IMG/VR virus record: IMGVR_UViG_3300030098_002632
Location: 1 to 34,996 of that record
Strand: one strand, 5' to 3'
Length of the DNA: 34,996 nt
From: a virus
The notes under the pieces are model-generated. The model searched no databases and had not been told where the DNA came from. It saw only the letters and a list, made by a program, of their open reading frames with translations. Positions within the stretch are counted from its first letter, which is position 1; every line of letters begins with the position of its first letter. Position numbers and translations under genes: made by a program. Below are positions 2,360-26,243 of this stretch, piece after piece.

Positions 2360-5300
2360 ATGGCGATAGTTGTAAAAGATAGAGTAAAAGTTACCACAAG
2401 TACAACTGGTACTGGTACACTTACGCTTGGATCTGCTGAAACAGATTTCCAGAGTTTTTCCGTTATTGGTGATGGCAACCAAACTTATTACGCAATTAAA
2501 TCGGATGCAGGATGGGAAGTTGGCATTGGCACTTATACGCTTAGTTCAAGTACTCTAAGCAGAGATACTATTCTTGAAAGTTCTAACTCAGGATCAGCAG
2601 TATCATTAACAGGCACATCAACAGTCTTTACGACTTACCCTGCTGAACGAGCTAGCTTTAGCGATCAAGGTTTATCTAAAACTTATATAGCTGATGGAGC
2701 AATAACAGCAGGCAAGCCAACAATATTAACAAGCGCAGGCAAAGCCCAACAATTTACCTTAACAGGAAATAGTGTGACAAGTGGACTTGGAACAGATGTG
2801 CAACCAAATGGAAGTGATTATTTAAACAATTCAAGTATTACAAAAGTATCAGATACTCAATTTGTTGCTTATTTTACTGATAGCGGTAATAGCAATAGAC
2901 CAACTGCAATAGTTGGAACTATAGGAGCTAATAAAACAATTACTTATGGCTCTAAACAAACAATAACAAATGATACAAATGTTACAAAATGTGAAGTAAT
3001 ATGGGATAGCAATGCTTCAAAATTACATTATTACAATTATGTTTCTACAGACGCATATTTATATGGAGCAACTTCAAATGTTAATTTAGCCACTAATACT
3101 ATTAGTGGGATTGGCACATGGGGTGTTGTAATGTCAAACCAAATATACGATATGATTGGTTTATATGATCCTGATAACAACCAAGTTGTTTTAACTGCTA
3201 ATAGGACAGGCGATCAATTAGAAATTATGTCTATGAGCGCTTCAACTTCACCGCCTACAGTTAGCTTTGACACAACAGTTTCAAGCATTACACATGGTGG
3301 CGGAGAACGAGCTATTGGTTATGATACTAATGTTGATGTTTTTGTTTGCACTGGCAATGATGATGATAAATTTGTAGCTTTCACTAATAGTGGATCAGCA
3401 TTTACCGCAAGTTCAGTTCAGGATTTAGCTCTTGGCAATCAAGATTATATGGGTTTTAGTTTTGATCCTGACGCAAATAAATTTGTTTATCATTATCATC
3501 CAAATGGTAACACAACGCAAAAGATTGTAGCCTTAACTGTTGATAGCTCAAGAAACATTACCATTGGAACGCCTGTTGATTTAGGAACAGCAGATGGCAC
3601 TGGTTCAGCAACATCAAGCTATGATCCAATAGCAAAAAAACATATAATTTTTGTTGGAGACGCGGCAAATAAAGGTAATTATTATCCTGTCACAATGGAC
3701 AGTAGTGGCGCAATGACTGTTGGATCAGCGACTGAGTTTGCTAAAACAAATTATTCAGTCCAAAGAATTGTAAGCACACCATGTTTTACAGCTATGGATG
3801 AAAACCCTATTGTTATCTTTTATGGAGATAACAATACAAGTCAAGGAGAGTCCGCTGTATTTGCTTTTGAACAAACTCCTGTTTCTAACCTTGATAATAA
3901 CTATCTCGGAGTAGCTTCAACATCCGCAAGTGATACGGAAGAAGTTAAAATCAACTTACCAGAGGGAAGCATTAATAACTCACAGAGTGGATTAACAGTA
4001 GGTGATGATTATTTCTGTAATACATCAGGTGAGATTAAGAAGTTTATCACAAGTTCTACAACTACTGATACAACACCATCAGGGGCTTTTGCCACAATGG
4101 ATGGTTCTGATACAGCAACAGAAGAACCAAGCTCTGCTTATGAATCAACATCTGGAACATTTGTTATTGCATATAGAGATGGGAGTAATGGCAGTAAAGG
4201 TACTGCTGTTGCAGGCACTTGGTCAAATGGAGTTTTAACATGGGGAACGCCTGTTGTATTTGAAAGCACTGCAATAGACGATCAACCAAAAATATGCGCA
4301 GGTGGTGGCAGAGTTCATATCACATATAGGGATAGCTCTGGTAATGGTGGTATAAAAAGCGGTTCTATATCAGGCACAACTCTAACTTTTGGAAGTGAAA
4401 CAGTTTTTGCTTCAAGTGGCGATAGTGCTTATGCTAACCCAATGGGCTATCATGTTGCTTATGATACCTCTACAAATTATATTATAATATTTTATCAAGG
4501 TGGTAGTGCGTCAGTAAACACCTATGTTCAACCAGTTCATTTTGATACAAGTAGTTATGCCTATACTTTAGGAACAACTACAACAGTATATGCAGATAGT
4601 CTGACAAGCCGATATGCAGATATAGTTTTTGATCCAGATACAAATAGAACAGTAATACTTTATACAGATGGTACAAATTCTAATTATAAAACTGCAAATG
4701 TTATTCAATCAACAGGCACTAGCGGTTCACCAACAGTATCAGTCGGAGCAGATTCGGTTATTGCGAGTGTAAATTCATCTAATTCTTGTATGACTTATGA
4801 CACACAAAATAATAAAGTCTTTGCTGTATATAAAGATGACACAGATTCAAATGCTATGAAAGGCAGTATAGGTACTGTTACAGGCGGTGGAACAAACACA
4901 ATAGCATTTACAACTCCTGCTGAAGTTTGGAATCCTAGCGGTAATCCAAATAATGTTGAAATTGAATTTGACTCAGATAGTAACGAAGCTTTTTTCTTTT
5001 ATAGAGATGAAGATAGCGGAGATGATTTTACTTATAAAGTTATTACTATTGGAGCAAGTTCATTTACAGTTGCGTCAGGTGGTGTATTAAGTGCAAATGA
5101 TAATAGATTCGATAGTGGAAGTGCAAGTTTTGGAACAGGCAAAGGTGTCTTATGCGCAACAATGGACACTGGTAATTCAAGTGTGTTATCTTACGGTACA
5201 GTCTATTATGGAGTAGTTACAACCTACACCCAAACAGACGCGCAATACATTGGCGAAGCTATATCAACAACAGCTTTAAAATTAAAAGAAACACCAACTG

Positions 5301-6793
5301 ATATTATATTTGGCAAAGCGTCAACTACGATAGCAAAAGGCAATCCTGTTTTAGTAGAAGCTGATGGAGATTTTGCTAAAGTTGCAACAGTATCAACAAG
5401 TAGCACAGTATCAGGAACATATAGTCAAGGTTCTATAACTAAAATTGATGATCTTGTTAACGATAAATGGTCAATGGATGTTGCTTCTGATGGCACAACT
5501 TATGGTTATGCATTTCGAGAAACATCAGGAGAAACAAACTTTATTTTAGGAACAAGGTCAGGAGAAACTATTACTTGGGGAACACCAATAACATTAGCAA
5601 GTTTTAATTCGCTAGCGACAATTGTTAAATATAACCCAGATCAAGATGTTTTTGTTGTGACTTATGCAAATCAATCAACTCATAAACATTTAGCAATAGC
5701 AGTTTCTTATTCTGGAACAACTGCTACAGCAGGATCAGAGATTGAATTACTAGCTTCAGCTTGGTCAAGTGGTGGAGTAGATCAACATTATGACCAAGTT
5801 TATGACAGTAATAGCAAAAACAATGTTTTTGTATGTCATGGAGCTAATAATAGTTTAGGCACACAATCAACAGCAATAGTTATAACTGTTTCAGGCACAA
5901 CTTTAACAGCAGGAAGTGAAAATGCAAACACTAGCAATGGCGGTCAATATTATAGTCTTTGTGATATTGGGGGTGGAAAGCTAGTTTTATATTACAGAGA
6001 TGGAAGTGCATATTACCCAAATGTGATGGTGTTAGAAGTTAGCGGTAACACAGTTACTTTTGGAACAACAGTTGTTGTAAATTCACAAAGTTATGGTGGT
6101 TTCTGCACACCAATTTATAATCCTAATTATGCAAATAAAGCTATTTTATTTGGTAAGATTTACACAGGCAATAATTATTATTCTTATGCAAGTTTAGCTA
6201 TTAGCGGAACAACCATAACTGTAAGCAATTATAGTGATGGCAATATTGCTTCTGATAATTGCTATGTTGAAAGCTTTGGTAAGGTGGCAGACTATTCAGA
6301 TTACTCAGGAACATATATTGCGGTGTATTCTGATAGTGATGATAGCTACAAACAATGTAACAGATTTTGCACAACTACCGATGGCGCAACATTAACAGTA
6401 GGAAGTGAAAACAAAGACTCAGCAGGATCATCTTTATTTTATTCAGGCGTAGTTAGTAATGATGTTAATGATAAATCTGTTGTTTACTTTGGTGATTATG
6501 CAAATGATGATTATGAATATTATGTTGTAAACCCAACTTATTCAAACACAGTAACTACAACAACAATAAATTTAACAACAGAAAACTTTATTGGTTTTTC
6601 TGAAAACGCTGTATCAGCTAACGAAACATCCAAAGTAAAAGTTGTTAACATAGATGATAACCAAACAGGATTAACGGCAGGCAAAATTTATTATGTAAAA
6701 AATGATGGCACTTTATCTACAACTGCTGAAAGCGGTAAAGTAGTAGAAGCAGGCAAGGCAATTTCAGCAACCAAACTATTAATAAGAGGATAA
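2360..6793 (+). CDS. Giant virion protein with repeated beta-propeller-like domains (fibre/adhesin candidate)
   Basis: 1477 aa, the largest gene here. Residues 1-95 form an N-terminal module ('VKDRVKVTTSTTGTGTLTLG' to 'FTTYPAERASF') that I recognise from other phage structural proteins, where it probably anchors a fibre. Three long arrays follow (about 140-520, 590-960, 1000-1420) built of blades of the type Y-D-x-x-x-N-x-x-V-x-x-Y-x-D, as in Asp-box/sialidase-like propellers. They are joined by related linkers containing 'AGKPTILTSAGK', 'KGNPVLVEADGDFAK' and, at the end, 'AGKIYYVKNDG'. No catalytic signature was found. ATG abuts the terL stop (TAA-ATG). A receptor- or glycan-binding role is inference from domain type. 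Its place between terminase and portal is unusual. Confidence 0.7.
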   Translation: MAIVVKDRVKVTTSTTGTGTLTLGSAETDFQSFSVIGDGNQTYYAIKSDAGWEVGIGTYTLSSSTLSRDTILESSNSGSAVSLTGTSTVFTTYPAERASFSDQGLSKTYIADGAITAGKPTILTSAGKAQQFTLTGNSVTSGLGTDVQPNGSDYLNNSSITKVSDTQFVAYFTDSGNSNRPTAIVGTIGANKTITYGSKQTITNDTNVTKCEVIWDSNASKLHYYNYVSTDAYLYGATSNVNLATNTISGIGTWGVVMSNQIYDMIGLYDPDNNQVVLTANRTGDQLEIMSMSASTSPPTVSFDTTVSSITHGGGERAIGYDTNVDVFVCTGNDDDKFVAFTNSGSAFTASSVQDLALGNQDYMGFSFDPDANKFVYHYHPNGNTTQKIVALTVDSSRNITIGTPVDLGTADGTGSATSSYDPIAKKHIIFVGDAANKGNYYPVTMDSSGAMTVGSATEFAKTNYSVQRIVSTPCFTAMDENPIVIFYGDNNTSQGESAVFAFEQTPVSNLDNNYLGVASTSASDTEEVKINLPEGSINNSQSGLTVGDDYFCNTSGEIKKFITSSTTTDTTPSGAFATMDGSDTATEEPSSAYESTSGTFVIAYRDGSNGSKGTAVAGTWSNGVLTWGTPVVFESTAIDDQPKICAGGGRVHITYRDSSGNGGIKSGSISGTTLTFGSETVFASSGDSAYANPMGYHVAYDTSTNYIIIFYQGGSASVNTYVQPVHFDTSSYAYTLGTTTTVYADSLTSRYADIVFDPDTNRTVILYTDGTNSNYKTANVIQSTGTSGSPTVSVGADSVIASVNSSNSCMTYDTQNNKVFAVYKDDTDSNAMKGSIGTVTGGGTNTIAFTTPAEVWNPSGNPNNVEIEFDSDSNEAFFFYRDEDSGDDFTYKVITIGASSFTVASGGVLSANDNRFDSGSASFGTGKGVLCATMDTGNSSVLSYGTVYYGVVTTYTQTDAQYIGEAISTTALKLKETPTDIIFGKASTTIAKGNPVLVEADGDFAKVATVSTSSTVSGTYSQGSITKIDDLVNDKWSMDVASDGTTYGYAFRETSGETNFILGTRSGETITWGTPITLASFNSLATIVKYNPDQDVFVVTYANQSTHKHLAIAVSYSGTTATAGSEIELLASAWSSGGVDQHYDQVYDSNSKNNVFVCHGANNSLGTQSTAIVITVSGTTLTAGSENANTSNGGQYYSLCDIGGGKLVLYYRDGSAYYPNVMVLEVSGNTVTFGTTVVVNSQSYGGFCTPIYNPNYANKAILFGKIYTGNNYYSYASLAISGTTITVSNYSDGNIASDNCYVESFGKVADYSDYSGTYIAVYSDSDDSYKQCNRFCTTTDGATLTVGSENKDSAGSSLFYSGVVSNDVNDKSVVYFGDYANDDYEYYVVNPTYSNTVTTTTINLTTENFIGFSENAVSANETSKVKVVNIDDNQTGLTAGKIYYVKNDGTLSTTAESGKVVEAGKAISATKLLIRG

Positions 6794-9585: not shown

Positions 9586-11082
9586 ATGGCATTTTGGGAT
9601 CGGTTCACAAAACAAAAGAAAAAAAGCAAAAGGCATTTTACAGGCACTAATGGCGGACGATTATTTAATGATTGGAAAGCATCATCATCTTCACCAGATG
9701 CTGAATTAATAAATCTGGGAACTATGAGAGATAGAACAAGAGATTTAGCTCGTAATAATCCAATTGTTCAAAGATATTTTCAAGTTATCAAACAGGGTGT
9801 AATAGGTAATCAACAAGGTTTCAAGCTTATGGTTCATTCCAGAGATAGCGATGGAACTTTAGATGATTTTGCCAACGATCTTATTGAATACAGATGGTAT
9901 AATGATTTCTGTACTAACCCAGAAGTAAGCGGCAAATATACTATGTTAGATATTTATAACATGGTTTTAGAGGGCTTAATCAGGGATGGAGAAGTTTTTG
10001 TTCAGCTTATAAGGCAAAGAGATGGATTAAAACTTAAATTCTTAGAGCCAGATTATTTAGATGCAAGATTAAGTAAGGATCTATCTGGTAATAGACAAAT
10101 AAAAATGGGTGTTGAAGTTGATAGTCTAACTGATAAACCATTAGGATATTGGCTAACTGATAATCCTTATGCTTTATCTGTACCAGATACACAACTAACT
10201 AAATCAACACGCCTACCAGCAGATGATGTTTTACATATTTTTCAACCACAAAGGTTCGGTCAGACTAGAGGTTATCCATATAAATTAGCTTCTACAATGA
10301 CTGCGATAAAGTGGTTACAAGATTTTAGATTATCAGAATTAGTTGCTTCAAAAGCAGCTGCATCAAAAATGGCTTTTATTAGAACTCCAACTGGAGAAGA
10401 TAATGTTGCTGAAAGTTATCTGGACGAAGATGGCTATATGCCAGCAATGAATTTTGAGCCAGCTACAATAGATGTATTACCACATGGAACAGATATTGAA
10501 TTTGCTAACTGGAATCATCCAAATACTTCTGTAGAGAGTTTTGATAAAGCTATGATAAGAACTATTGCAAGTGGTTTAGGAGTATCTTATGCCAGTCTTT
10601 CAAATGATCTTACGCAAACAAGTTACAGTAGCGCAAGAGTAGGTTTACTAGATGAGAGAGATGGATTTAAACAGCTCCAAACATTTATAATTAACCATTT
10701 TGCGAAGCCAGTTTATCATGCTTGGTTAGAGCAAGAAATGACAACTGGTAATATCAATTTACCAATTGATAAATATGAAAAATTTGCTAATCCATGTGAG
10801 TTTTCTTCAAGAGGTTATCACTCTGTAGATCCTCTAAAAGAAATGCAGAGTAATCAATTAGGATTAAGCAATGGTTTATTAACCATACAAGATGTACTCA
10901 ATCAATCTGGAAAAGAGTTATCACAACACTTCTCAGAATTAGATGCGCAGCAAGCTCTCGCAGATAAATTTAATATTGAGTTAGCTTATGAACCTTATGG
11001 CACAAAGTTTAATCAACAAACTGGAGAGCCATTTAACGAAGATGAAAATCAAGAACCATCTCAGGAGAATAATAATGAGTAA
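9586..11082 (+). CDS. Portal protein, lambda gpB family
   Basis: 498 aa, within the usual range for this family. The N-terminus carries a basic stretch ('KQKKKSKR') followed by 'SPDAELINLGTMRDRTRDLA', typical of lambda-type portals, and 'RNNPIVQRYFQVIKQGVIG'. The core has 'EGLIRDGEVFVQLIRQRDG', 'FLEPDYLD', 'DDVLHIFQPQRFGQTRGYP' and 'SYSSARVGLLDE', all family landmarks. The dodecameric portal forms the DNA channel at the head vertex. The C-terminal tail is acidic. Its stop overlaps the start of the protease-capsid gene by 8 bp, so the two are translationally coupled. Confidence 0.95.
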   Translation: MAFWDRFTKQKKKSKRHFTGTNGGRLFNDWKASSSSPDAELINLGTMRDRTRDLARNNPIVQRYFQVIKQGVIGNQQGFKLMVHSRDSDGTLDDFANDLIEYRWYNDFCTNPEVSGKYTMLDIYNMVLEGLIRDGEVFVQLIRQRDGLKLKFLEPDYLDARLSKDLSGNRQIKMGVEVDSLTDKPLGYWLTDNPYALSVPDTQLTKSTRLPADDVLHIFQPQRFGQTRGYPYKLASTMTAIKWLQDFRLSELVASKAAASKMAFIRTPTGEDNVAESYLDEDGYMPAMNFEPATIDVLPHGTDIEFANWNHPNTSVESFDKAMIRTIASGLGVSYASLSNDLTQTSYSSARVGLLDERDGFKQLQTFIINHFAKPVYHAWLEQEMTTGNINLPIDKYEKFANPCEFSSRGYHSVDPLKEMQSNQLGLSNGLLTIQDVLNQSGKELSQHFSELDAQQALADKFNIELAYEPYGTKFNQQTGEPFNEDENQEPSQENNNE

Positions 11083-12994
11083 TGAAACAGATAACGATGA
11101 ATTAATCGTAAAAGGTATTGAAGTAAAAAACGACATTATAGAAGAATTAGATGTAGTTTTTGAACCAGATGAAGAAATGGATCTTCGACTCAATGAAGAA
11201 GAAGAAACCAGATCAGAAGAAAAACAAGAAGAACAGCTCGAAATGCGCGATGCTGTTTTTCCATTAGAATTTAAGAGGGATGAATCAGATAGTCGTACTA
11301 TTAATATGAGCATATCATCTGAATCACCAGTTATGAGAAGCTTCGGATTGGAAGTCCTAAGTCATCGTAACGACGACATCAATCTTAATCGCCTAAACAA
11401 TAAAGCTCCTTTATTGTTAAACCATGATGCTGAAAGGCAGATTGGAGTTATCGAGAATACTTCCCTTGATGAGAGTCGTGGCAGACTAAATGCTAGTGTA
11501 AGATTTGGAAGATCTGCACTCGCGCAAGAAGTATATGATGACATAATAGACGGTATCAGGTCGCAAGTATCGATAGGTTATTCCATCGATAAGCTTGATA
11601 GAGTCGATTCTGACGAATATGAAGAAGATGTTTTTAGAGCATCTTTTACTCCACATGAAGTCAGTATTGTGAGCATGGCAGCGGATCAAACCGTTGGCAT
11701 TGGTCGCAGTTTATCATTTAAAAAATTATCAAATACGGAGATCAATATGACACAAGAAGATAATAATAAGGAAACTGTAAATCAGGATGAGCAAATTAGA
11801 GTTGCTACAACTGAAGCAGTTAAAAAGCGCGATAAAGAAATTAGTGAAATTTATAAACTAGCTTCTCGCCACAACCAAACTCCACTAGCTCAAAAAGCAG
11901 TGGCAGAAAACCAAACTATAGATCAATTCAGAAACTTATTACTTACTGAAATTGAAAACAAACCACTTGAAACTCAAGAAATTGGTTTAACTGAAAAAGA
12001 AGCAAGAGATTTCTCAATTGTAAAAGCTGCTAAAGCAAAAGCTGGAATTATTTCAGAAGATGAAGCAGGCTTTGAGTTAGAAGCATCAAGAGCTTTTGGC
12101 GAAGCAACAGGAAAACAAACATCAGGTTTCTTTGTACCAGAAGATGTAACTAACAAATGGTCAGAAAGAACTATGAATACTACTAACTCAGCTGGTGTAG
12201 TATTTGATGACAAGCAATATAACAACTTGATCGATGCTTTAAGCGCATGGTCAACAGTTCTACAGGCTTCACCAACAATTCTTTCCAATAATACTGGCAA
12301 TATTACGATACCAAGAGTATCAGCACTTAGCACATCGAATTGGGTAACTGAAGGTGTTGCAGTTGCTGCTTCAGATCCTAGTATTGATACTGTAACTCTT
12401 TCTGAAAAGACTAATGGTTGTTATACAGATCTTACGAGAACGCTTATGCAAAACACTGATGGGCTTTCTGTAGAGCAAATGGTTAGAAATAACCTACTTA
12501 GAGCTATGGGCGTTGCATGGGATTTAGCATCTGTTGCAGGCACTGGCGCTGGTGGTCAACCAACTGGCATTGAAAACACAGCTGGCGTTAACGCTACTGC
12601 ATTTGCTGGAGCGACTCCAACTTATGCCGAGCTAATTGACATGGAAGCAGCTATTTATAACGATAATGCAGTTTTAGATAGCAATTCAGTTTACTGGATA
12701 ACTACTCCAACAATTAACGCAGCTACAAAAACTCTAGCTACTCAAGGCGCTGGATCTCCAGTTGCTAACATTGATGGCATAATTGACGGAAAAAGAGTTC
12801 TTATTTCTTCTCAGGTAACAGCTGGGAATGTAATACTTGGCGATTTTTCTGAATTTATTGTTGCCACATGGGGTGGATTAGAAATCAATAGCGATGCTTT
12901 CTCACTAAGCACAAGCGGTTCACTAAGATTAGTGGCTCTTAGCTCAGTAGATTTTGCTGTTAAACATCCAGTATCATTCTGCGTATCTACATAG
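11075..12994 (+). CDS. Fused head maturation protease and major capsid protein (HK97 fold)
   Basis: 639 aa. The start at 11075 is chosen because CAGGAG stands just upstream; an earlier in-frame Met at 10988 lies inside the portal gene. Residues 1-60 are very acidic and may be a scaffold-like segment. Residues 60-215 are a prohead protease: H117 in 'LLLNHDAER' and S166 in 'RSQVSIGYS' fit the S78-type His/Ser pair. Residues 225-335 are charged and helical, matching the delta/scaffold domain. Residues 340-639 are an HK97-type capsid protein ('ATGKQTSGFFVPEDV', 'NTGNITIPRVSALSTSNWVTEG', 'GQPTGIENTAGVN'). The protease should cut itself free in the prohead. Protease and capsid genes are separate in many relatives, so the fusion is noteworthy. 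Confidence 0.92.
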   Translation: MSNETDNDELIVKGIEVKNDIIEELDVVFEPDEEMDLRLNEEEETRSEEKQEEQLEMRDAVFPLEFKRDESDSRTINMSISSESPVMRSFGLEVLSHRNDDINLNRLNNKAPLLLNHDAERQIGVIENTSLDESRGRLNASVRFGRSALAQEVYDDIIDGIRSQVSIGYSIDKLDRVDSDEYEEDVFRASFTPHEVSIVSMAADQTVGIGRSLSFKKLSNTEINMTQEDNNKETVNQDEQIRVATTEAVKKRDKEISEIYKLASRHNQTPLAQKAVAENQTIDQFRNLLLTEIENKPLETQEIGLTEKEARDFSIVKAAKAKAGIISEDEAGFELEASRAFGEATGKQTSGFFVPEDVTNKWSERTMNTTNSAGVVFDDKQYNNLIDALSAWSTVLQASPTILSNNTGNITIPRVSALSTSNWVTEGVAVAASDPSIDTVTLSEKTNGCYTDLTRTLMQNTDGLSVEQMVRNNLLRAMGVAWDLASVAGTGAGGQPTGIENTAGVNATAFAGATPTYAELIDMEAAIYNDNAVLDSNSVYWITTPTINAATKTLATQGAGSPVANIDGIIDGKRVLISSQVTAGNVILGDFSEFIVATWGGLEINSDAFSLSTSGSLRLVALSSVDFAVKHPVSFCVST

Positions 12995-15017: not shown

Positions 15018-15178
15018 ATGACGATCCGCATTTGTTATCGATATATGCACTCGCGGATCGATTAAAACAACCAGTCGAAGTTATAAAAGATATGACAATG
15101 GAAGAATTTATCCATTGGATAGCTTTTTACAACATTGAACAACAGAGAATAAAAGATGTCGCAAAAACTACAATATGA
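14640..15178 (+). CDS. Tail assembly chaperone gpGT-like (-1 frameshift product)
   Basis: The G reading frame shifts back one base at 15014 and continues for 54 codons to TGA at 15176-15178, giving about 179 aa. The T extension contains 'LSIYALADRLKQPVEVIKDM' and then 'TMEEFIHWIAFYNIEQQRI', the usual T-domain pattern (an Ala-rich helix, then 'mt..Ef..W.ay...e'). That extension has no start codon with a good ribosome binding site of its own, so frameshifting is the only sensible way to express it. The end overlaps the tape measure start by 23 bp. In lambda, GT links the tape measure to tube subunits. Confidence 0.85.
15008..15014 (+). promoter_or_regulatory. Programmed -1 ribosomal frameshift site A_AAA_AAC
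   Basis: Zero-frame codons are GAA(15006) AAA(15009) AAC(15012) TAA(15015), so the heptamer A AAA AAC is in the correct X_XXY_YYZ phase. It sits immediately before the gpG stop. The -1 frame is open from 15014 to the TGA at 15176. Downstream 'GACGATCCGC' and 'GCGGATCG' (15018-15027 and 15053-15060) can pair (CGATCCGC with GCGGATCG), offering a possible stimulatory stem. Confidence 0.88.
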
Positions 15179-16733
15179 GTTATCAGCTAGAGATAGAACT
15201 AAAGCAGCTTTAAGATCCTTTAAAAAAGGTTTAGCTGGAGCAGGAAAATCTTTATTAAGCCTTAAATCTGGTTTAGTGGGTTTAGCAGCTGGACTAGGAG
15301 CTATTAGATTTGCTCAAGCTACAAAAGATGCTTTAAACTTTGGAGCGCAGCTTCAAATTACAAGTGATAAAATTGGCGTAGCAGTTGAATCTTTACAAGC
15401 TTTTCGTATTGCAGCAGAATCGGCAGCTGGAGTTCAGTCTAATGTTATGGATATGGCTCTCCAGAGGTTCTCAAGGCGTGTTGGTGAAGCACAAAAAAAT
15501 ACTGGTGAATTAAAAGGAAGCTTACAAGAACTAGGAATAGATCTTAAAAATGCAGATGGTAGTTTTAAATCTGTTGAAGAAGTATTGTTTGAGTATGCAG
15601 ATGGTGTAGCGGCAGCTGGAAACGCATCTGAACAATTATTATTTGCCTTTAAAGCTTTTGACTCTGAGGGCGCAGTATTGGTCGGTATCTTAAAAGAGGG
15701 CGGAGCAGCATTAAGAGATCAATATAATAAAGCGTTAGAAAGTGGAGCAATATTGACTAAAGGCGCTGCAATGCAGAGTAAGGTCTTAAATGCTGAACTT
15801 GCTGTACAGGGCAAAATAATAAGCACTCAGCTAAAAGGACTGCTACTAGAATTTGGAGATCTTTTACTTCATGTAACGACAAATCTGGCAAAACTAACTA
15901 CAGCATTTAGAAACTTCCTTAAAAGCGATACGCAAAAATTTATTGATACTATAGGCTCTATGACTGAGAGTGAAGTATTAGACAATATAGATCTTTACAA
16001 TGAAAAGCTAAAAGAGCAGCAAGCTATATTAGATCAGTATAAAGATCAAAATGCGTTCCAAAAAATGTTAAGTGGATTTGACGAAAAATCATTTTTAAGT
16101 GCTGCAAAATCAGTAAAAGACTTCACATTAGTTTTAAAAACTTTGAAAGAAATGCAAAGATCTTTTGCAGAGGGCGAAAGCGGAGAAAAAGGTTTCTTTG
16201 GCGGATTAGCAGAGGGCTTAAAAAATGTTGAAAGAAATTTAAAAACAACAAAACAACTTGGAATGGATTTTGCTAAATCTATTGAAACAAATATGGTCGC
16301 TGCATTTGATTCAATTATTAAAGGCACAAAAACATTAAGCGAGGGCTTAAAAGATCTTGGAAGAATATTAATTCAAGAAGCAATGAAAATGATTATCTAC
16401 AGGATGATAATCGCTCCATTTACAGATATGTTCGGTGGGTTCTTAGACGGCATAGGATTATCAGCTCCAGCTAATAAGCAATACGGTGGATCTGTACAAA
16501 AGGGCAAACCTTATATTGTAGGAGAAGCTGGTATGGAGATGTTTGTTCCAAATCAATCTGGAACAATTGTACCTAACCACAAACTCGGCGGATCTGGAAC
16601 GATTGTTCAAAACATAAATATTTCTACTGGCGTTGCTGCAACTGTTAGATCTGAAATTATATCCTTGCTGCCATCTATTGCAGAAGTAAGTAAAGGCGCA
16701 ATGATAGATAGTCAATTAAGAGGGCAGATCTAA
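15156..16733 (+). CDS. Tape measure protein
   Basis: 525 aa. It opens with 'YELSARDRTKAALRSFKKGL', a common tape-measure start. Then come hydrophobic helices ('SLKSGLVGLAAGLGAIRFAQ'), the segment 'AVESLQAFRIAAESAAGV', and long helical regions. Near the end, 'MKMIIYRMIIAPFTDMFGGF' is followed by 'YGGSVQKGKPYIVGEAGMEM' and 'VPNQSGTIVPNH', the signature closing motif of many tape measures. Using the rule of thumb of about 0.15 nm per residue, a tail of roughly 80 nm is expected, shorter than lambda's. It is overlapped upstream by the frameshift product and abuts the distal tail gene. Confidence 0.93.
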   Translation: MSQKLQYELSARDRTKAALRSFKKGLAGAGKSLLSLKSGLVGLAAGLGAIRFAQATKDALNFGAQLQITSDKIGVAVESLQAFRIAAESAAGVQSNVMDMALQRFSRRVGEAQKNTGELKGSLQELGIDLKNADGSFKSVEEVLFEYADGVAAAGNASEQLLFAFKAFDSEGAVLVGILKEGGAALRDQYNKALESGAILTKGAAMQSKVLNAELAVQGKIISTQLKGLLLEFGDLLLHVTTNLAKLTTAFRNFLKSDTQKFIDTIGSMTESEVLDNIDLYNEKLKEQQAILDQYKDQNAFQKMLSGFDEKSFLSAAKSVKDFTLVLKTLKEMQRSFAEGESGEKGFFGGLAEGLKNVERNLKTTKQLGMDFAKSIETNMVAAFDSIIKGTKTLSEGLKDLGRILIQEAMKMIIYRMIIAPFTDMFGGFLDGIGLSAPANKQYGGSVQKGKPYIVGEAGMEMFVPNQSGTIVPNHKLGGSGTIVQNINISTGVAATVRSEIISLLPSIAEVSKGAMIDSQLRGQI

Positions 16734-17368
16734 TGGCAATTACATATCCTTTAAGTATTCCCAATACTACAAGCTTTTCCCAAATTAATATGATGGCTAA
16801 ATCAACAGTAGGCGTTTCTACATCTCCATTTACCAATCAAGCACAGATCTATAAATGGTCAGGTGAATATTGGGAAGCAGACATTCAAACAAAACCAATG
16901 AAAAGAGAGGACGCAGAATACTGGATTAGTTTTATGCTAAAATTAAAAGGATCTTTTGGAACTTTTTTAATTAATCCAGATGTATTAGGTAATACAGCAC
17001 GCGGCAGCTGCTCAACATCAGCTGGAACTCCAGTAGTTAATGGCGCTCATGCAGCGCAAAGTAATACATTAAATATTACAGGCGCTCCATCAGGAGCTAC
17101 AAACTATTTTAAAGCTGGTGATTATTTTAGTATTGGAAGTGGATCTACAACAAGATTATTTAAAGTTCTGGACGATACAAGTAGCAATGGTTCTGGTGAA
17201 TTAGTTGTTAACATTTTTCCACAATTAAGAGTGGCTTTAAGTGGCAGTGAAGCAATCACTGTTAGCAATCCAAAAGGTAAATTCCGTTTAGCGTCAAATG
17301 AAATGCGATGGCAAGTATCAACCGTTTCAATGTACGGAATAGGGTTTACCGCAATAGAAGCAGTATAA
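16733..17368 (+). CDS. Distal tail protein-like component
   Basis: 211 aa. The N-terminus ('YPLSIPNTTSFSQINMMAKS') and 'YWEADIQTKPMKREDAEYWI', then 'LKGSFGTFLINPDVLG', fit a widespread tail component encoded right after the tape measure, comparable in position to distal tail proteins or GTA-type tail proteins. A Gly/Ser-rich beta segment (residues 90-165) looks like an inserted domain. The C-terminal 'GKFRLASNEMRWQVSTVSMY' returns to the core. The stop TAA shares one base with the next ATG. Confidence 0.72.
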   Translation: MAITYPLSIPNTTSFSQINMMAKSTVGVSTSPFTNQAQIYKWSGEYWEADIQTKPMKREDAEYWISFMLKLKGSFGTFLINPDVLGNTARGSCSTSAGTPVVNGAHAAQSNTLNITGAPSGATNYFKAGDYFSIGSGSTTRLFKVLDDTSSNGSGELVVNIFPQLRVALSGSEAITVSNPKGKFRLASNEMRWQVSTVSMYGIGFTAIEAV

Positions 17369-17544
17369 TGAAAGATAAAAATAAAAAAGGTAAGCGTTCT
17401 CATCGCGGAATGAAGTATGCTTGGATAGAAAAGATCCGTGAACAGATTAATTTTGGTAAAAAAAGTAAACGCAAAAAAGCAAAAAAAGCTAAACGCAAAT
17501 GTAAAAAATGCGGTGGAGCTAACTGTAAATGTAAGGTTAAATAA
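17368..17544 (+). CDS. Very basic 58-aa protein with four clustered cysteines
   Basis: 58 aa from the ATG at 17368, which shares a base with the upstream stop (TAATG). A longer frame from 17308 would run backward into the distal tail gene without support. About 24 of 58 residues are Lys or Arg. The C-terminus 'KCKKCGGANCKCK' carries C-x2-C-x4-C-x-C, suited to a small zinc site. It sits inside the tail operon and ends in the first base of the hub gene's ATG, so it is co-translated with tail-tip proteins. A nucleic-acid-binding or assembly role is possible; I do not recognise a family. Confidence 0.6.
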   Translation: MKDKNKKGKRSHRGMKYAWIEKIREQINFGKKSKRKKAKKAKRKCKKCGGANCKCKVK

Positions 17545-18515
17545 TGGCTCGCACAATTACATTTGGATCTCAAATTGCAGCTGATGAAGTCGAACCATTT
17601 TTCGCTGTTAAATTAGATTTCTCTGGAGATTTTACTCGCACATTTTTAGTTACAGTTGGAAGAACTGGTGAGGGTAATAAGTATTTTATAAATACAGATC
17701 AACAACAAGAATTAACTATTGCCAGAGGTAACACAATTATCTTTGATACAAGTGATAGCAGCGTATCATCGCATCCTTTAAGATTATCGACTACAAGTGA
17801 TGGAACTCATGGCGGCGGATCTGAATATACAACTGGCGTAACAACATCTTCTTCACAAACTCAGATAGTTGTTGCTGGTGGCGCTCCAGATACCTTGTAT
17901 TACTATTGCAGCGTACATTCTGGAATGGGTGGTAAGATTAATATTGTCGATGCTCCTGCAAGAGTATGGACTGGTTTTGGCGACATCACAATTGACTCGG
18001 AAACATACAAAGGATTGGGTGATTTTGGACAAATTACAAATGTTGTTCAGAATGAAAAATTAACAGCAGAGGGTTTAACTTTAAGTTTATCTGGTATTCC
18101 TGTTGATTATATTTCAAATGCTTTACGCGACAATTATCAAGGGCGTAGCGTATCAATTTATTTTGGTGTTTTAGTTGACGGTCAATTAACTTTAACTCCT
18201 TATGAATTATTTACTGGTCGCATGGATCAGATGACAATTAATACAAGTGGTGATGGATCAAGAATAGATCTTACTGTTGAAAACCAACTTATAGATATGC
18301 AAAGAACACGCATATCCAGATACACTGAGGACGATCAAAAAGCTAAATATGGATCTACTGAAACAAGTTTAAGATATGTATCTGGATTACAAGAAAAAGA
18401 AGTGTTGTGGGGTATTCCATTTAGTGCAGTTCCAAATGTAGTTGCTCCACCAACACAAGATGAAATTAATAAAATTGTAGATGATTTTGTCAAAGGCGGA
18501 TTTAGAGGTTTTTAA
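17544..18515 (+). CDS. Tail hub protein with inserted cupredoxin-like domain
   Basis: 323 aa. The backbone, residues 1-32 ('EVEPFFAVKLDFSGDFTR') plus 139-323 ('ARVWTGFGDITIDSETYKGL', 'EGLTLSLSGIPVDYISNAL', 'DNYQGRSVSIYFG', 'LFTGRMDQMTI'), fits the DUF2163-like/GTA hub family, in which these two parts are normally contiguous. Between them lie about 105 residues of a cupredoxin-like domain: a Greek-key pattern with H77 ('SSHPLRL') and C122-x2-H125-x2-M128 ('YYYCSVHSGMGG'), the four type-1 copper ligands. Hub proteins form the baseplate ring that contacts the cell. The copper role is inferred from motif only. Confidence 0.78.
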   Translation: MARTITFGSQIAADEVEPFFAVKLDFSGDFTRTFLVTVGRTGEGNKYFINTDQQQELTIARGNTIIFDTSDSSVSSHPLRLSTTSDGTHGGGSEYTTGVTTSSSQTQIVVAGGAPDTLYYYCSVHSGMGGKINIVDAPARVWTGFGDITIDSETYKGLGDFGQITNVVQNEKLTAEGLTLSLSGIPVDYISNALRDNYQGRSVSIYFGVLVDGQLTLTPYELFTGRMDQMTINTSGDGSRIDLTVENQLIDMQRTRISRYTEDDQKAKYGSTETSLRYVSGLQEKEVLWGIPFSAVPNVVAPPTQDEINKIVDDFVKGGFRGF

Positions 18516-18934
18516 TGACTGAACTTGATAATTATATCGCCAAAAAATTACACGAAGATTTTGAATATGGAAAAAATGACTGCATGACTTTTACAAATGG
18601 AGCAGTTGAAGCTGTAACAGGCATTAATCATCTAAAAAAAATAAGAAAATGGAATAGTGCAGCTGAAGCTAAAAAAGTTTTAAAGCACGAAAAGCACAAA
18701 GAATTTATAGATATATTTGATAGCCGATTTCGACAACATACTAATTTAAGTAAGTTAAAAGATGGCGATATAGCTCTTGTTGATAATCCATCAGATACGA
18801 CTTTTTCAAAATATTCAGCGACAATTTATTATAAAGGTAAATTGGTTGGAGTAAGTAGTTCTGGAATGATTACTTTTCCAGTAGAAAGCGGAGAATACTT
18901 TTTTAACATTAGAAGTTTAAGAATTAGAGGATAA
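18515..18934 (+). CDS. NlpC/P60-like tail peptidase (DUF6950-like)
   Basis: 139 aa. 'FEYGKNDCMTFTNGAVEAVT' contains the Asp-Cys dipeptide that carries the putative nucleophile in this family of small tail-associated cysteine peptidases, related to GTA gp14. The gene lies between hub and tail-tip genes, where the peptidase is expected. The usual downstream His is not obvious: 'SKYSATIYYKGKLVGVSSSG' has Ser where 'H' is common, so activity is doubtful. In the family the enzyme opens peptidoglycan during DNA entry. ATG overlaps the hub stop (TAATG). Confidence 0.7.
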   Translation: MTELDNYIAKKLHEDFEYGKNDCMTFTNGAVEAVTGINHLKKIRKWNSAAEAKKVLKHEKHKEFIDIFDSRFRQHTNLSKLKDGDIALVDNPSDTTFSKYSATIYYKGKLVGVSSSGMITFPVESGEYFFNIRSLRIRG

Positions 18935-18935
18935 G

Positions 18936-20645
18936 ATGGGCGAATTTGTTACAATGCTGGCTACTAAATTTGCTGAATGGCTAGTTGGAGCGCAAGCAGT
19001 TAAAGCTGGTACTTTTGCCGCTAAAGCCGCTATCTTTGCAGCTAAAACTGTTATAGTTGGCGTTCCGTTATTATTGGCAGGAAAAGCATTGCTGCCAAAA
19101 ATGGATCTTAACTCTTTATTAGCTAGAAGCAGTATGCAGCGTAGTCCAATTGCATCGCGAAAAGTAGTTTATGGACGAGCAAAAGTAGGTGGAACTATTC
19201 TTTATATGAGTGAGGGTACTAGCGGAGTAGCAGCTAATAGGGAGCATCTCTATATGGTATCAGCTTTATCCTACAAAGAAATTGATAGCTTTGAAAAGAT
19301 CTACGCAAATAATGAAGAATTAACTATAAATGGATCTACTGGTCATGTAACTTCACCATCAAGATACTATCCAAATAGCAATCCAAGATTTACATTCGGT
19401 GTTAGTTCTGTAATGACTGGCACAACTACTCAGACTTTAGATAGTGCAGTTTATAGTAATACAGATCTTACAAGCAGCGATCAGTTTAAAGGCATTGCTT
19501 GTTTACAATTTTGGATGGCATACGATCCAGAAGTTTTTACAAGCGGTATTCCTAATGTAACTGCATTAGTTAAAGGTCGAAAAATTTTAGATTTTAGAAC
19601 TAGCACTACTGCTTGGAGTGATAATCCTGCTTTAATAATATATGATTATTTAACAGATACAGATTATGGATTAGGAGTTCCAGTTTCCAGAATAGATACA
19701 ACATCTTTTACGGCAGCTGCAAACACTTGCGAAGAACAAGTGGCATTAGATACAGATCCAGTTACTTATGAAAACAGATATACTTGTAATGGTGTTATAG
19801 ATACAGCAGCAACAATATCAAATAACCTTGAGATGTTATTAAGCTCATGCGTAGGTAGTTTAGCTTATATTGACGGAAAATATAAATTAAGAGTTGGCGA
19901 ATGGGTTGCTCCTACTCAAACAATAACAGAGGAAGATCTACGCGGAGCTGTATCTTTAATTACAAAACCAAGCCGCAGAGAAGTATTTAATACAGTAAAA
20001 GGTATTATCGTAACAGAAGCTTCAAACTGGCAACCAGCAGATTATCCAGAAGTAAAAAATACTGCTGCAATAACGGCAGCTGGTGAAGAAATAAAAAGTG
20101 AATTGCCATTGCCATTTACTAGCTCATCATCAATGGCTCAAAGAATAGCAAAAATATATTTGAATAAAAACTTACAAGATTACACTTTAACTTTACCTTT
20201 AAAATTAACGCAATTTTCATTAGAGCCAAGCGATACTGTTAATGTAACACTAGAAAAAAGTTTCGGTTTTAAAAATAAAATATTTGAGGTTGTTTCATGG
20301 TCATTTGGAACATCAAGTGGTGAGAATGGAGAATTAGTTTTAGGTGTTGATGTAACATTAAGAGAAACAGCAAGCAGCGTTTATGACTGGGCGGCAACTG
20401 ATGAAACAGCGATGCCAGAAACATCTGCTCCAACAGTTACAAAAATAGAAAATGTAGATGCTCCAAGTTTTTCACTTGCTGCAATTACAACTAAAAAAGC
20501 AGAAGACGGAACTCTGGTTGACGGTTGCGAATGTTCAATCACTGATCCAACAGATAATCGCCATGTCGTAGAATATGATGTGGCTTATAAAAAATCCAGT
20601 GATAGCAATTTTACAGAAATATCAGTTTTAAGGGATAGTAATTAA
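18936..20645 (+). CDS. Tail tip protein (gpJ-like), N-terminal part; gene split in FN3 domain
   Basis: 569 aa. An N-terminal hydrophobic region ('AIFAAKTVIVGVPLLLAGKA') is followed by 'RSPIASRKVVYGRAKVGGTI', 'EHLYMVSALSYKEIDSFEKI', 'NVTALVKGRKILDFR', 'IIYDYLTDTDYGLGVP', 'CNGVIDTAATISNNLEMLLS' and 'GKYKLRVGEWVAPTQTITEE', a clear gpJ-type tip attachment protein. The C-terminal 70 residues begin a fibronectin-III domain but stop after 'VLRDSN'. The missing strands of that domain ('TYDVKVRARTMAGKYSAYS') are at the start of the gene at 21401, beyond a two-gene insertion. The combined length would be about 890 aa. The TAA overlaps the ATG of the inserted gene (TAATG). Confidence 0.88.
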   Translation: MGEFVTMLATKFAEWLVGAQAVKAGTFAAKAAIFAAKTVIVGVPLLLAGKALLPKMDLNSLLARSSMQRSPIASRKVVYGRAKVGGTILYMSEGTSGVAANREHLYMVSALSYKEIDSFEKIYANNEELTINGSTGHVTSPSRYYPNSNPRFTFGVSSVMTGTTTQTLDSAVYSNTDLTSSDQFKGIACLQFWMAYDPEVFTSGIPNVTALVKGRKILDFRTSTTAWSDNPALIIYDYLTDTDYGLGVPVSRIDTTSFTAAANTCEEQVALDTDPVTYENRYTCNGVIDTAATISNNLEMLLSSCVGSLAYIDGKYKLRVGEWVAPTQTITEEDLRGAVSLITKPSRREVFNTVKGIIVTEASNWQPADYPEVKNTAAITAAGEEIKSELPLPFTSSSSMAQRIAKIYLNKNLQDYTLTLPLKLTQFSLEPSDTVNVTLEKSFGFKNKIFEVVSWSFGTSSGENGELVLGVDVTLRETASSVYDWAATDETAMPETSAPTVTKIENVDAPSFSLAAITTKKAEDGTLVDGCECSITDPTDNRHVVEYDVAYKKSSDSNFTEISVLRDSN

Positions 20646-20948: not shown

Positions 20949-21404
20949 ATGTTATCAGTATTATTTTCATCGGCTCTCGGATTCGGAAGCTCTTTTCTCC
21001 CCAGTTTATTAAAATTTGCCGAAAACCGTCAGAAAGCAAAATTAGAAATACAATTGATGGAAACTAAAGCTAAATTTGCTAAAGAATTAAGCTCATTAAA
21101 ATTAAAAGAAGCCGAGCAGCAGGCTCTGGCACAACAAGCTCAATCAATTTATGCACACGATGAAACAATCCAAAAAGCAAATCATTCAAAATTCGTAGCA
21201 TCCTTATCAGCGTCGGTTCGACCAGTTATCACTTATATTATGTTCGCATTATTTTGCTTGGTTGTAGTTAGTCAGGTAGTAGTTGCAATACAAGAGGGCG
21301 AAGAAACATTAAAAGCAATACGCGATAGCTTCACGGAAGAAGCGTATATGATATTAAGCAGCACTGTTAGTTTTTACTTCGGTGGACGGATGGTCCGCAA
21401 ATGA
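20949..21404 (+). CDS. Holin, three-TM type (second gene of the inserted cassette)
   Basis: 151 aa. A short N-terminal hydrophobic stretch ('VLFSSALGFGSSFLPSLLKF') is followed by a long charged helix (residues 25-80, rich in K/E/A) and two C-terminal membrane segments ('VRPVITYIMFALFCLVVVSQ' and 'AYMILSSTVSFYFGGRMV'). This is the layout of the '3TM holin' family related to GTA release holins. It should form the membrane hole that times lysis. AAGGA precedes the ATG, and an operator and probable promoter stand upstream. Its stop overlaps the start of the tail-tip C-terminal gene (ATGA), coupling holin and tail-tip translation. Confidence 0.8.
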   Translation: MLSVLFSSALGFGSSFLPSLLKFAENRQKAKLEIQLMETKAKFAKELSSLKLKEAEQQALAQQAQSIYAHDETIQKANHSKFVASLSASVRPVITYIMFALFCLVVVSQVVVAIQEGEETLKAIRDSFTEEAYMILSSTVSFYFGGRMVRK

Positions 21405-22372
21405 CAAGAGCAATTATAACTCCTGTCGTATCTGGTGAAACTTACGATGTTAAAGTTCGTGCAAGAACGATGGCAGGAAAATATAGCGCCTACAGTGCTA
21501 CAAGCCAGATTACCATACCTACTTATTCTACAGCTCCAGCTGTACCTACTTCTCCAAGCGCTACAAGCGATCCTCTTTCTATTACTATTAAATGGACTAA
21601 TCCAGCTGATAAAGATCTTAAAGGTGTTGAAATCTATTACAGCACTACAAGTGGATCTGGTTTTTCACTTTTAACAAGTATTGATGGAGTTCCAAGCACG
21701 GCGCAAGAATTTGACTGGAATTATGAAGATGCTTTATCGCTCAACCAAACTTATTATTTTAAAATAAGATCTATTAATACAAGTGGCGTAGCATCTGGTT
21801 ACACTTCGGAAGTATCAGCTCAGTTTAGCACTATTGCAACTGGCGATGTTACTATGAACGCTATTTCAAATATCTCAGGATCTATTGTTTCTTACAATTC
21901 TAATGCAGAAAGCAGCACTCAGGATGCGATTACCTATTCAGCAAATGGAACTGGATCAGATAGCACTACATTTAACGGTTATATGGCAGCTGAAATAACA
22001 TTAGGAGCAATTGACAGCTCGATAGCTGGTTTTTTAATAACAGCAAATGCTTTAGCTAGTAAAAGAACTATTGGAACAGCAAAATACGCTTATGCAATTG
22101 TTTTACAAAAATTACCATCTAACGCTTATTGGACTAAAGCAGCAGCATCTGGAAATTATGCTGTTTTTTTAGGCACTGGTGATGCAACAGGGCAAAGCTC
22201 TACTGAGGGCATACAAGGATCTTTTAGCTCATCATTTTTAGATGATGCAACTGGCGTAACTGGAACAACAGGATCTAAATACGGATTATTTTTATATGAA
22301 CCAACAGAAACTACCGATCAATACTGGGTATTTGGTGGAACTGGATTAACTGTAACGGAATTAAAAAGATGA
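21401..22372 (+). CDS. Tail tip protein (gpJ-like), C-terminal part with FN3 domains
   Basis: 323 aa. Residues 1-45 ('AIITPVVSGETYDVKVRART') are the second half of the fibronectin-III domain that breaks off at 20645. A complete FN3 domain follows (about 46-150, 'PTSPSATSDPLSITIKWTNP' to 'YYFKIRSINTSGV'). The rest (residues 155-323) is Gly/Ser/Thr-rich beta and probably the receptor-facing end. The start ATG overlaps the holin stop, with no other ribosome binding site. If expressed separately, the two halves of the FN3 domain must pair without a covalent link. Possible alternative: an assembly or strain with an uninterrupted gene. Confidence 0.75.
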   Translation: MTRAIITPVVSGETYDVKVRARTMAGKYSAYSATSQITIPTYSTAPAVPTSPSATSDPLSITIKWTNPADKDLKGVEIYYSTTSGSGFSLLTSIDGVPSTAQEFDWNYEDALSLNQTYYFKIRSINTSGVASGYTSEVSAQFSTIATGDVTMNAISNISGSIVSYNSNAESSTQDAITYSANGTGSDSTTFNGYMAAEITLGAIDSSIAGFLITANALASKRTIGTAKYAYAIVLQKLPSNAYWTKAAASGNYAVFLGTGDATGQSSTEGIQGSFSSSFLDDATGVTGTTGSKYGLFLYEPTETTDQYWVFGGTGLTVTELKR

Positions 22373-24583: not shown

Positions 24584-25924
24584 ATGATTAATATAACTAC
24601 TAGAAAAATTGGCGAAGCTTCATACTGGGTTGCAGATTTTAGATATGCGCCGAGTGGTTTTTCAGTTGAGGACTGGAAGCAAAAATCAGATGAGTTAGTT
24701 GCCGCAAAACTTTTACCTAAAAATAAAAGATTAAATATTAACAAATCAAAAATGAATAAAAATGCTGTACGCGAAAAGTGCGCAGCATTAATTAACGATG
24801 TTCACGACCACGATATGAGTAAAGATATATTGATGGTGAAAGATCTTTTTGCAGATACTACTGGCATTGAAGATTTTGACTGGAAGCAGCATGAGAATTA
24901 TTTAGGTCGTAGATATGCAGTGGATCTAAAATTAAATAGATCTATCACGCAATCCACTTTTGATTACGAATTAAATCTTTGCAAAAAAATTGTAAAACTT
25001 TTTGGTGATAAAAACTGGTCTAAATTAAATGCTGAAAATTGCATGGTTGAATTAAGACAATATTGCGCTGACAATGCTAACGATTTAGAAACTGAGGATC
25101 TTCGATTAGCAAGTTCTTATGGAACATTTAAAAGATCTTTTAATTTGCTTAAAGCGATCTCCAGATACTTAAATAAATTCTATCAAGTTAAGGATGTTTT
25201 TGCTGATGTATTATTAAAAGATTTTCCTGCTCCAAAAATTATTTCTGATTATAACGAAATTAAAGATGCTAGAACTGATGCAGTTAATGTTGATGATGTT
25301 TTATATTACACTGAGCAAAGTTATTTAAAAGGCATCCATAACCGTCCAGAGCATCTTAGAAACTTATGGCTTGAGCAGTTACTTATTACGATCGAAATGT
25401 TTAAGAGAACTGGTATGAGAAAAGGTGAACTTCTTGCGTTGACTTGGGATGATCTACAGTTAGTTGAAAAGGGCAACAGAAAATTTGCTACTTTATCAAT
25501 TAACAAAAGCTTTAACAGAAATACCCAAATATTAAGCAAGCCTAAAACTGCTAAAGGTGTAAGAACCGTTCCTTTATCTTTTGATTTTTATGAAAGATTA
25601 ATGGCTTATAAAGAGATCCAAATAGAGAGCGAATTAATGTTTCCTAACTCCGTAGGTAAATATGATACCAGAGATCGTTTTGGTAAGGCTCTAAGAGCAG
25701 GAAATAAGCTTGTACATGGCAGCAATAAATCAAAGTATTTAACTGTACACGGCATCCGCCATTTCTACGCAACGAAGTTCTTAAATGAAAATCAAGGATC
25801 TTTAGATGACTTATCAGTTCTTTTAGGACATACTGATCCTGCTACAACTATTAAGAACTATGTTGATAACAGAAATATACCAACTGATAGACTTGCTGAT
25901 ATAGCAGATAGAATAGGAGCTTAA
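24584..25924 (+). CDS. int: Tyrosine integrase
   Basis: 446 aa. All catalytic elements are visible: R279 ('KRTGMRKGELLALTWDD'), the lysine of the beta hairpin ('SKPKTAKGVRTVPL'), H389-x-x-R392 ('TVHGIRHFYATKF'), H416 ('LLGHTDPATT') and nucleophile Y426 ('IKNYVD'). Residues 1-100 are the arm-binding/AP2-like N-terminal part, and about 105-210 the core-binding SAM-like domain. It catalyses phage integration at attP x attB and, with a directionality factor, excision. AGGAG lies ahead of the ATG. Its promoter carries the phage's operator palindrome, so expression is tied to the immunity circuit. The next small gene follows after 1 bp. Confidence 0.95.
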   Translation: MINITTRKIGEASYWVADFRYAPSGFSVEDWKQKSDELVAAKLLPKNKRLNINKSKMNKNAVREKCAALINDVHDHDMSKDILMVKDLFADTTGIEDFDWKQHENYLGRRYAVDLKLNRSITQSTFDYELNLCKKIVKLFGDKNWSKLNAENCMVELRQYCADNANDLETEDLRLASSYGTFKRSFNLLKAISRYLNKFYQVKDVFADVLLKDFPAPKIISDYNEIKDARTDAVNVDDVLYYTEQSYLKGIHNRPEHLRNLWLEQLLITIEMFKRTGMRKGELLALTWDDLQLVEKGNRKFATLSINKSFNRNTQILSKPKTAKGVRTVPLSFDFYERLMAYKEIQIESELMFPNSVGKYDTRDRFGKALRAGNKLVHGSNKSKYLTVHGIRHFYATKFLNENQGSLDDLSVLLGHTDPATTIKNYVDNRNIPTDRLADIADRIGA

Positions 25925-25925
25925 A

Positions 25926-26150
25926 ATGAAATATGTAAAAAATTTTTTTATAGATGAAGCTGCTGGTGAAAAATTATGGATTCATAAACTTCGAGATAAG
26001 ACTGGAAAAACTTTTACATTAAAATCTACAGTACAGCATACTGATAAAGAAGTTACAGAAAAATTATATACATTTTATAAAGATTTAATTAATCGAGATG
26101 GAACATTTAAAAGAGATTTTGAACTTTATAGTTATTATGCTAAATACTAA
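25926..26150 (+). CDS. Small basic hypothetical protein co-transcribed with int
   Basis: 74 aa, starting 1 bp after the integrase stop. It is rich in Lys and aromatic residues ('YVKNFFIDEAAGEKLWIHKL' and 'LYTFYKDLINRDGTFKRDFE'). No HTH is obvious. Being coupled to int it might assist recombination or be a small regulatory protein. I do not recognise a family. Confidence 0.55.
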   Translation: MKYVKNFFIDEAAGEKLWIHKLRDKTGKTFTLKSTVQHTDKEVTEKLYTFYKDLINRDGTFKRDFELYSYYAKY

Positions 26151-26165
26151 TCCGTGATGTAAGGA

Positions 26166-26243
26166 CGGAGTGTAGCGCAGTCTGGTTAGCGCACGCGCTT
26201 TGGGAGCGTGAGGTCGCAGGTTCGAATCCTGCCACTCCGACCA
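26166..26243 (+). tRNA. tRNA-Pro(UGG), complete with encoded CCA
   Basis: Acceptor stem CGGAGTG/CACTCCG (26166-26172 with 26233-26239), discriminator A, CCA 26241-26243. D-stem GCGC/GCGC. Anticodon stem CGCGC/GCGTG (one G-U pair) with loop TTTGGGA, so anticodon TGG at 26201-26203. T-arm GCAGG-TTCGAAT-CCTGC. Every stem pairs, so the gene looks functional. It is the only tRNA gene seen. Anticodon UGG reads CCA, which is the dominant proline codon here (14 of 16 in the capsid gene by my count). Because it is complete, it is cargo rather than a leftover attP tail. Confidence 0.96.

Follow-up and report, generated by a model that had tools for sequence, protein, structure and literature searches.

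The tail hub protein encoded in the window (the whole stretch of DNA analysed, 34,996 nt, positions 1 to 34,996 of IMG/VR record IMGVR_UViG_3300030098_002632) carries an insert of ~105 residues with the predicted fold of a cupredoxin, a ligand set that is invariant across diverse relatives with one degenerate exception, and a modular distribution among virion proteins that includes a second insertion site within hubs. Taken together, these observations favour a reading in which the insert is a cupredoxin with a complete type-1 copper site, placed in a surface hairpin of the hub, belonging to a mobile family and acting as an accessory surface module for weak adhesion. We assign this reading as a whole a probability of about 0.55.

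The hub gene and its insert

The insert-bearing gene (17544..18515, plus strand) encodes a 323-aa gpL-like hub protein, identified by core homology to phrog_2048 ('tail protein'; E 3.7e-38, residues 135-305) and by gene order, and aligning to the hub of Roseobacter phage CRP-406, which is annotated as 'minor tail protein L'. The hub gene is preceded by genes for a tape measure protein (15156..16733, plus strand; phrog_9483 and further tape-measure families) and a distal tail protein (16733..17368, plus strand; phrog_1302, E 2.9e-35), and followed by those for a DUF6950 protein in the lambda gpK position (18515..18934, plus strand; Pfam PF22262, E 2.1e-21) and a J-like tip protein (18936..20645, plus strand; phrog_5616, E 4.5e-78; phrog_31 'central tail fiber J', E 2.5e-50). 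The same order of tape measure, distal tail protein, hub, DUF6950 and J-like genes is found in the Roseobacter phages CRP-406, CRP-811, CRP-6 and CRP-831, whose hubs are 183-188 aa long and lack the insert. Terminases of the CRP phages are also the closest relatives of the window large terminase (~53% identity).

The insert comprises residues 33-138 (17640..17957, plus strand) and lies between the first strand, FFAVKLDFSGD, and the sequence ARVWTGFGD. Alignment of the window hub with those of CRP-406, CRP-811, CRP-6, CRP-831, other phages and IMG/VR contigs places the extra residues in the first beta-hairpin, exactly at the junction where the usual hub joins its first strand (FYAVExxFDSG) directly to RVWTGxGD. 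This agrees with the first-pass annotation, made from the sequence alone, which had described about 105 residues inserted into an otherwise continuous hub core.

Within the hub family the insert behaves as an accessory. The sequence collection was scanned with a closer hub set, the eight-sequence alignment being too diverse for scanning, and the insert was missing from 71 of 80 hub relatives; in the other nine it occupies the hairpin used in the window. These nine hubs represent six loci groups, and their domains cluster with that of the window (support 89/87, 92% of bootstrap trees), a pattern consistent with one insertion followed by descent. A hub on contig 3300030433_002229 carries the domain at a different hairpin, just ahead of the strand equivalent to the window PYELFTGRMDQM. 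Two separate acquisitions by hubs are proposed because these insertion sites differ and not because of the tree, as a topology joining this domain to the other hub domains was not rejected (AU p 0.198). Two further hubs (L391 and L392, hub ORF starting at 1734) have a different insert of ~50 residues (KYKIVSVGNTDFTAIGASSNTVGLDFTATGAGSGTG) at the hairpin used in the window, so this hairpin accepts insertions of more than one kind.

Predicted fold and copper ligands

The model of the insert, built from an alignment with 42 relatives, is almost all-beta and of high confidence (pLDDT 94.3, pTM 0.86), and has the Greek-key beta sandwich of cupredoxins. The top ranks of a Foldseek search against the PDB were rusticyanin, a three-domain nitrite reductase, pseudoazurin and amicyanin, all with probability 1.00. 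VIA-align scored nitrite reductase 2dv6 (N-terminal region) at Z 10.1, two-domain laccases at Z ~9.3 and rusticyanin at Z 9.2, modestly above the values of 7-8 that are usual for models lacking a clear match; since this margin is modest, the cupredoxin case leans on fold and ligands jointly. The modelled structure makes the assignment of the insert as a cupredoxin well supported: residues 33-138 are predicted to have the fold that had been proposed for them, and not one lacking the Greek key.

Comparison at the sequence level links the insert to copper proteins weakly. The plastocyanin-family Pfam model PF00127 (Copper-bind) scores 13.7 bits against a curated cut-off of 21.2, and its best E value among 43 domain members is 0.0066. 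A profile including the most divergent members reaches plastocyanins at E values of at least 0.044, and in the best of these weak matches both ligand His residues and the Cys between them coincide with plastocyanin ligands. Several members match Pfam PF25489 (At5g54830-like) below its cut-off, and no Pfam or NCBIfam model exceeds its cut-off over the insert domain. Querying PDB sequences with the window hub itself, or with the first profile, returned no cupredoxin; the matches were mostly antibody chains sharing the YYC motif, along with other chance matches.

The four predicted copper ligands are His77 (17772..17774), Cys122 (17907..17909), which is the sole cysteine of the protein, His125 (17916..17918) and Met128 (17925..17927), the last in the axial position, all on the plus strand and all present in the translated ORF precisely as first described. 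Conservation was assessed in sets picked, where possible, without using the residues under test. Among loci selected by the motif GSEYTTGV, which lies outside the ligands, H77 is present in 78/78 unique copies, and the Cys, His and Met are kept in all 77 copies uncut by a contig end. Conversely, loci selected by the C-x2-H-x2-M loop retain H77 in 76/76 untruncated copies, and selection by hub motifs only recovers all four ligands in 9/9 insert-bearing hubs. Copies from bacterial and archaeal genome contigs keep the ligands in 85/85 cases, part of this set having been selected by the C-x2-H loop. Across 37 representatives with <60% identity, the invariant columns are restricted to H77, Y120, C122, H125 and M128; one of them, Y120, is variable within the hub set. 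Even where WIKC replaces YYYC (L318 and L319), the four ligands are kept. Only one copy clearly departs from the pattern, a degenerate second one in cyanophage S-CAM4 with Glu in place of Met (CHE). H89 was ruled out as an additional ligand because the position is not conserved (W, N, I, F, R or absent).

The ligands are thus arranged as in type-1 copper proteins (His...Cys-xn-His-xn-Met) and do not vary freely, being kept in diverse sets chosen without them. From this pattern, the insert is predicted to carry a complete type-1 ligand set, and copper binding is strongly predicted. The insert shares its predicted fold and its His...Cys-x2-His-x2-Met order with amicyanin, pseudoazurin, plastocyanin and rusticyanin. 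Blue copper proteins function in photosynthesis and respiration, and type-1 cupredoxins are free electron carriers, whereas the insert is a domain within virion and surface proteins and its copper site is a predicted one. The ligands of amicyanin are His53, Cys92, His95 and Met98 (PMC12723479), a C-x2-H-x2-M spacing equal to that of the insert. The residue after the first His is Pro in 211/226 copies of the domain, but Asn in amicyanin and Ser in rusticyanin.

Carriers of the module and its possible role

The domain was found in >200 loci, and the ligands account for four of its five invariant columns, so the insert is more than a chance occurrence. Outside hubs, 156 complete carriers hold the domain internally (57), at the N-terminus (55) or at the C-terminus (44). 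They include tail fibres of HTVC028P, Baldr and Fussvirus, a putative proximal tail fibre of P-SSM2, structural proteins of S-B68, S-H9-2, S-CAM4 and S-TIM phages, a gpJ homologue (L119), a T4 gp15-like sheath stabiliser (L180), an SU10-like neck adaptor (L181) and baseplate-related proteins. PHROG counts for carrier proteins are inflated, because the cupredoxin-like domain is itself shared. Patchy presence among homologues and varied positions in unrelated virion proteins are the behaviour of a mobile accessory domain, and segments similar to YYCxxHSGMGG do occur in other marine phage virion proteins, as the first-pass annotation had stated. The module extends over tailed phages of cyanobacteria, SAR11 and uncultured marine hosts, and the sequenced isolates that carry it include HTVC028P, Baldr, S-TIM5, S-CAM4, S-B68 and P-SSM2. 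In the phage collection, only 22 of 50,697 records match, and their hosts or sources are marine where stated.

Carriers of the domain on genome contigs include proteins with lipobox-like starts (SAR86 and other marine bacteria), secreted proteins with several copies (Cellvibrionales) and large repeat proteins; on some contigs assigned to Pelagibacteraceae, the carriers resemble phage tail fibres. Judged by sequence, this is one mobile module family, common to many marine phage virion proteins and marine bacterial surface proteins. Two Cellvibrionales proteins (L302, ORF at 2512; L305, ORF at 2605) begin with a signal-peptide-like sequence, repeat the domain two or three times in tandem and have a hydrophobic C-terminus; they are simple cellular members of the domain family. 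Open-access papers on cupredoxins in connection with phage tails, cyanophages, virions and prophages yielded no description of this domain or of a copper-protein domain in virions.

Virion domains of the Ig-like and fn3 types, for example in lambda gpJ, share the patchy presence, the many unrelated virion carriers and the variable position of the module, but belong to another fold class, and an invariant metal-ligand set is the feature of the module. Lambda gpL and RcGTA g13 resemble the window hub in gene order, in the hub core and in being hubs that bear accessory and metal-binding domains. In lambda, the HDI domains of gpL help to build the last tail ring (PMC10721106), and both the lambda and RcGTA hubs hold an iron-sulfur cluster by four cysteines (PMC10721106, PMC7296036). 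This [4Fe-4S] site lies in the C-terminal domain of those hubs, whereas the window hub instead has a cupredoxin in its first core hairpin, and its single cysteine, C122, makes a [4Fe-4S] cluster impossible.

In the favoured reading, H77, C122, H125 and M128 would bind copper in the virion, and three copies of the module would ring the tail tip, as suggested by the lambda and RcGTA hubs (PMC10721106, PMC7296036). The position of the module at the tip is taken from these two systems because the full-length hub model, with a pLDDT of 36 from a shallow alignment, failed and was discarded. Since virion assembly takes place in the cytoplasm, copper uptake would probably follow lysis. The site would stabilise the module and shape a contact patch, and the module may serve as an accessory surface domain for weak adhesion, working as Ig-like domains are thought to on other phages and not as an electron carrier. 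A surface role is suggested because lipobox-type and secreted cellular carriers exist, and the wide placement of the module, including neck components, argues for a general surface (adhesion) module and against a tip-specific trigger or receptor key.

The leading alternative, although unlikely, is that the metal bound by the four residues, whether copper or zinc from the cytoplasm, serves solely to stabilise the domain or the virion and has no part in host contact. The zinc form of this explanation is countered by the presence of Met in the ligand set, as Met-containing type-1 sets are typical of copper rather than zinc. A structural metal of either kind would suit the occurrence of the module on neck components that do not meet the receptor, and has a counterpart in the [4Fe-4S] cluster of the lambda hub, which is without assigned function (PMC10721106), but it leaves the spread across so many virion proteins unexplained.

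Improbable is a redox-active site or receptor key at the tip, which would sense or dock a host copper-uptake or redox protein and so trigger or guide infection, comparable to the Ferrojan horse for iron. The type-1 ligand set is complete, the carrier hub is a tip protein and phage fibres offer iron analogues, yet the module is also found on the sheath stabiliser, the neck adaptor and bacterial lipoproteins, and no host receptor is known. Binding to a host metal receptor and redox sensing, both suggested by the first-pass annotation, are therefore unsupported as tip-specific functions, the module occurring on baseplate-related proteins as well, and a tip-specific trigger was set aside because carriers exist at the neck. 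The iron analogues also differ in kind. Phage fibres bind iron at HxH sites (PMC11705849), and the HxH iron fibres (T4 gp37, Alteromonas phage R22Y) and the Ferrojan horse share with the insert a metal bound or predicted in the adsorption apparatus; in these fibres iron is held by paired HxH motifs of the fibre trimer, whereas the insert has a copper-type site inside one domain, and no HxH motif is present in the window hub protein sequence.

Least probable is a cupredoxin fold that binds no metal and keeps the four residues solely because folding requires them, like domains of this fold that have lost copper. Such copper-free domains occur naturally, and the Pfam copper-protein model scores under its cut-off, but the four ligands are invariant while adjacent loop positions, even Y120, vary, and domains that lose copper usually lose their ligands.

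Beyond the favoured reading of a copper-bearing accessory module, a broader and rather unlikely proposal is that many marine phage particles are copper metalloparticles, with a module common to virions and marine bacterial surface proteins and with copper acting in adsorption, through copper-mediated contact or redox at the host surface. If true, virions would also make up a reservoir of oceanic copper in strongly bound form. For marine phages, metal in the adsorption apparatus has so far been discussed for iron, in the HxH sites, the Ferrojan horse hypothesis and the unexplained gpL [4Fe-4S] cluster; copper may likewise belong to many marine virus particles. What is new here is a known fold with a probable metal site, in a location and at a scale that we have not found described.

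Other features of the window

A very basic ORF of 58 aa (17368-17544, plus strand; C-terminal end ...KRKCKKCGGANCKCKVK) sits between the genes for the distal tail protein and the hub and overlaps both, at the stop codon of the first and the start codon of the second. L001 has a relative, and the CRP phages have no such gene there. The J-like sequence is divided between two ORFs: one holds the N-terminal J-like part (18936-20645), and the other, beyond a holin-like gene, is an fn3 ORF (21401-22372) that matches a later portion of phrog_31. An integrase gene (phrog_1, E 8.7e-29) is found near a tRNA-Pro gene (26166-26243) in the region 24584-26243, pointing to a temperate phage with a possible attachment site. 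Directly following the large terminase gene, a 1477-aa ORF (2360-6793) matches no PHROG family, and none of its Pfam matches is significant. A 668-aa ORF (10988-12994) matches both major head protein and head maturation protease families and appears to be a fusion of protease and capsid protein; it shares ~95 bases with the portal gene.
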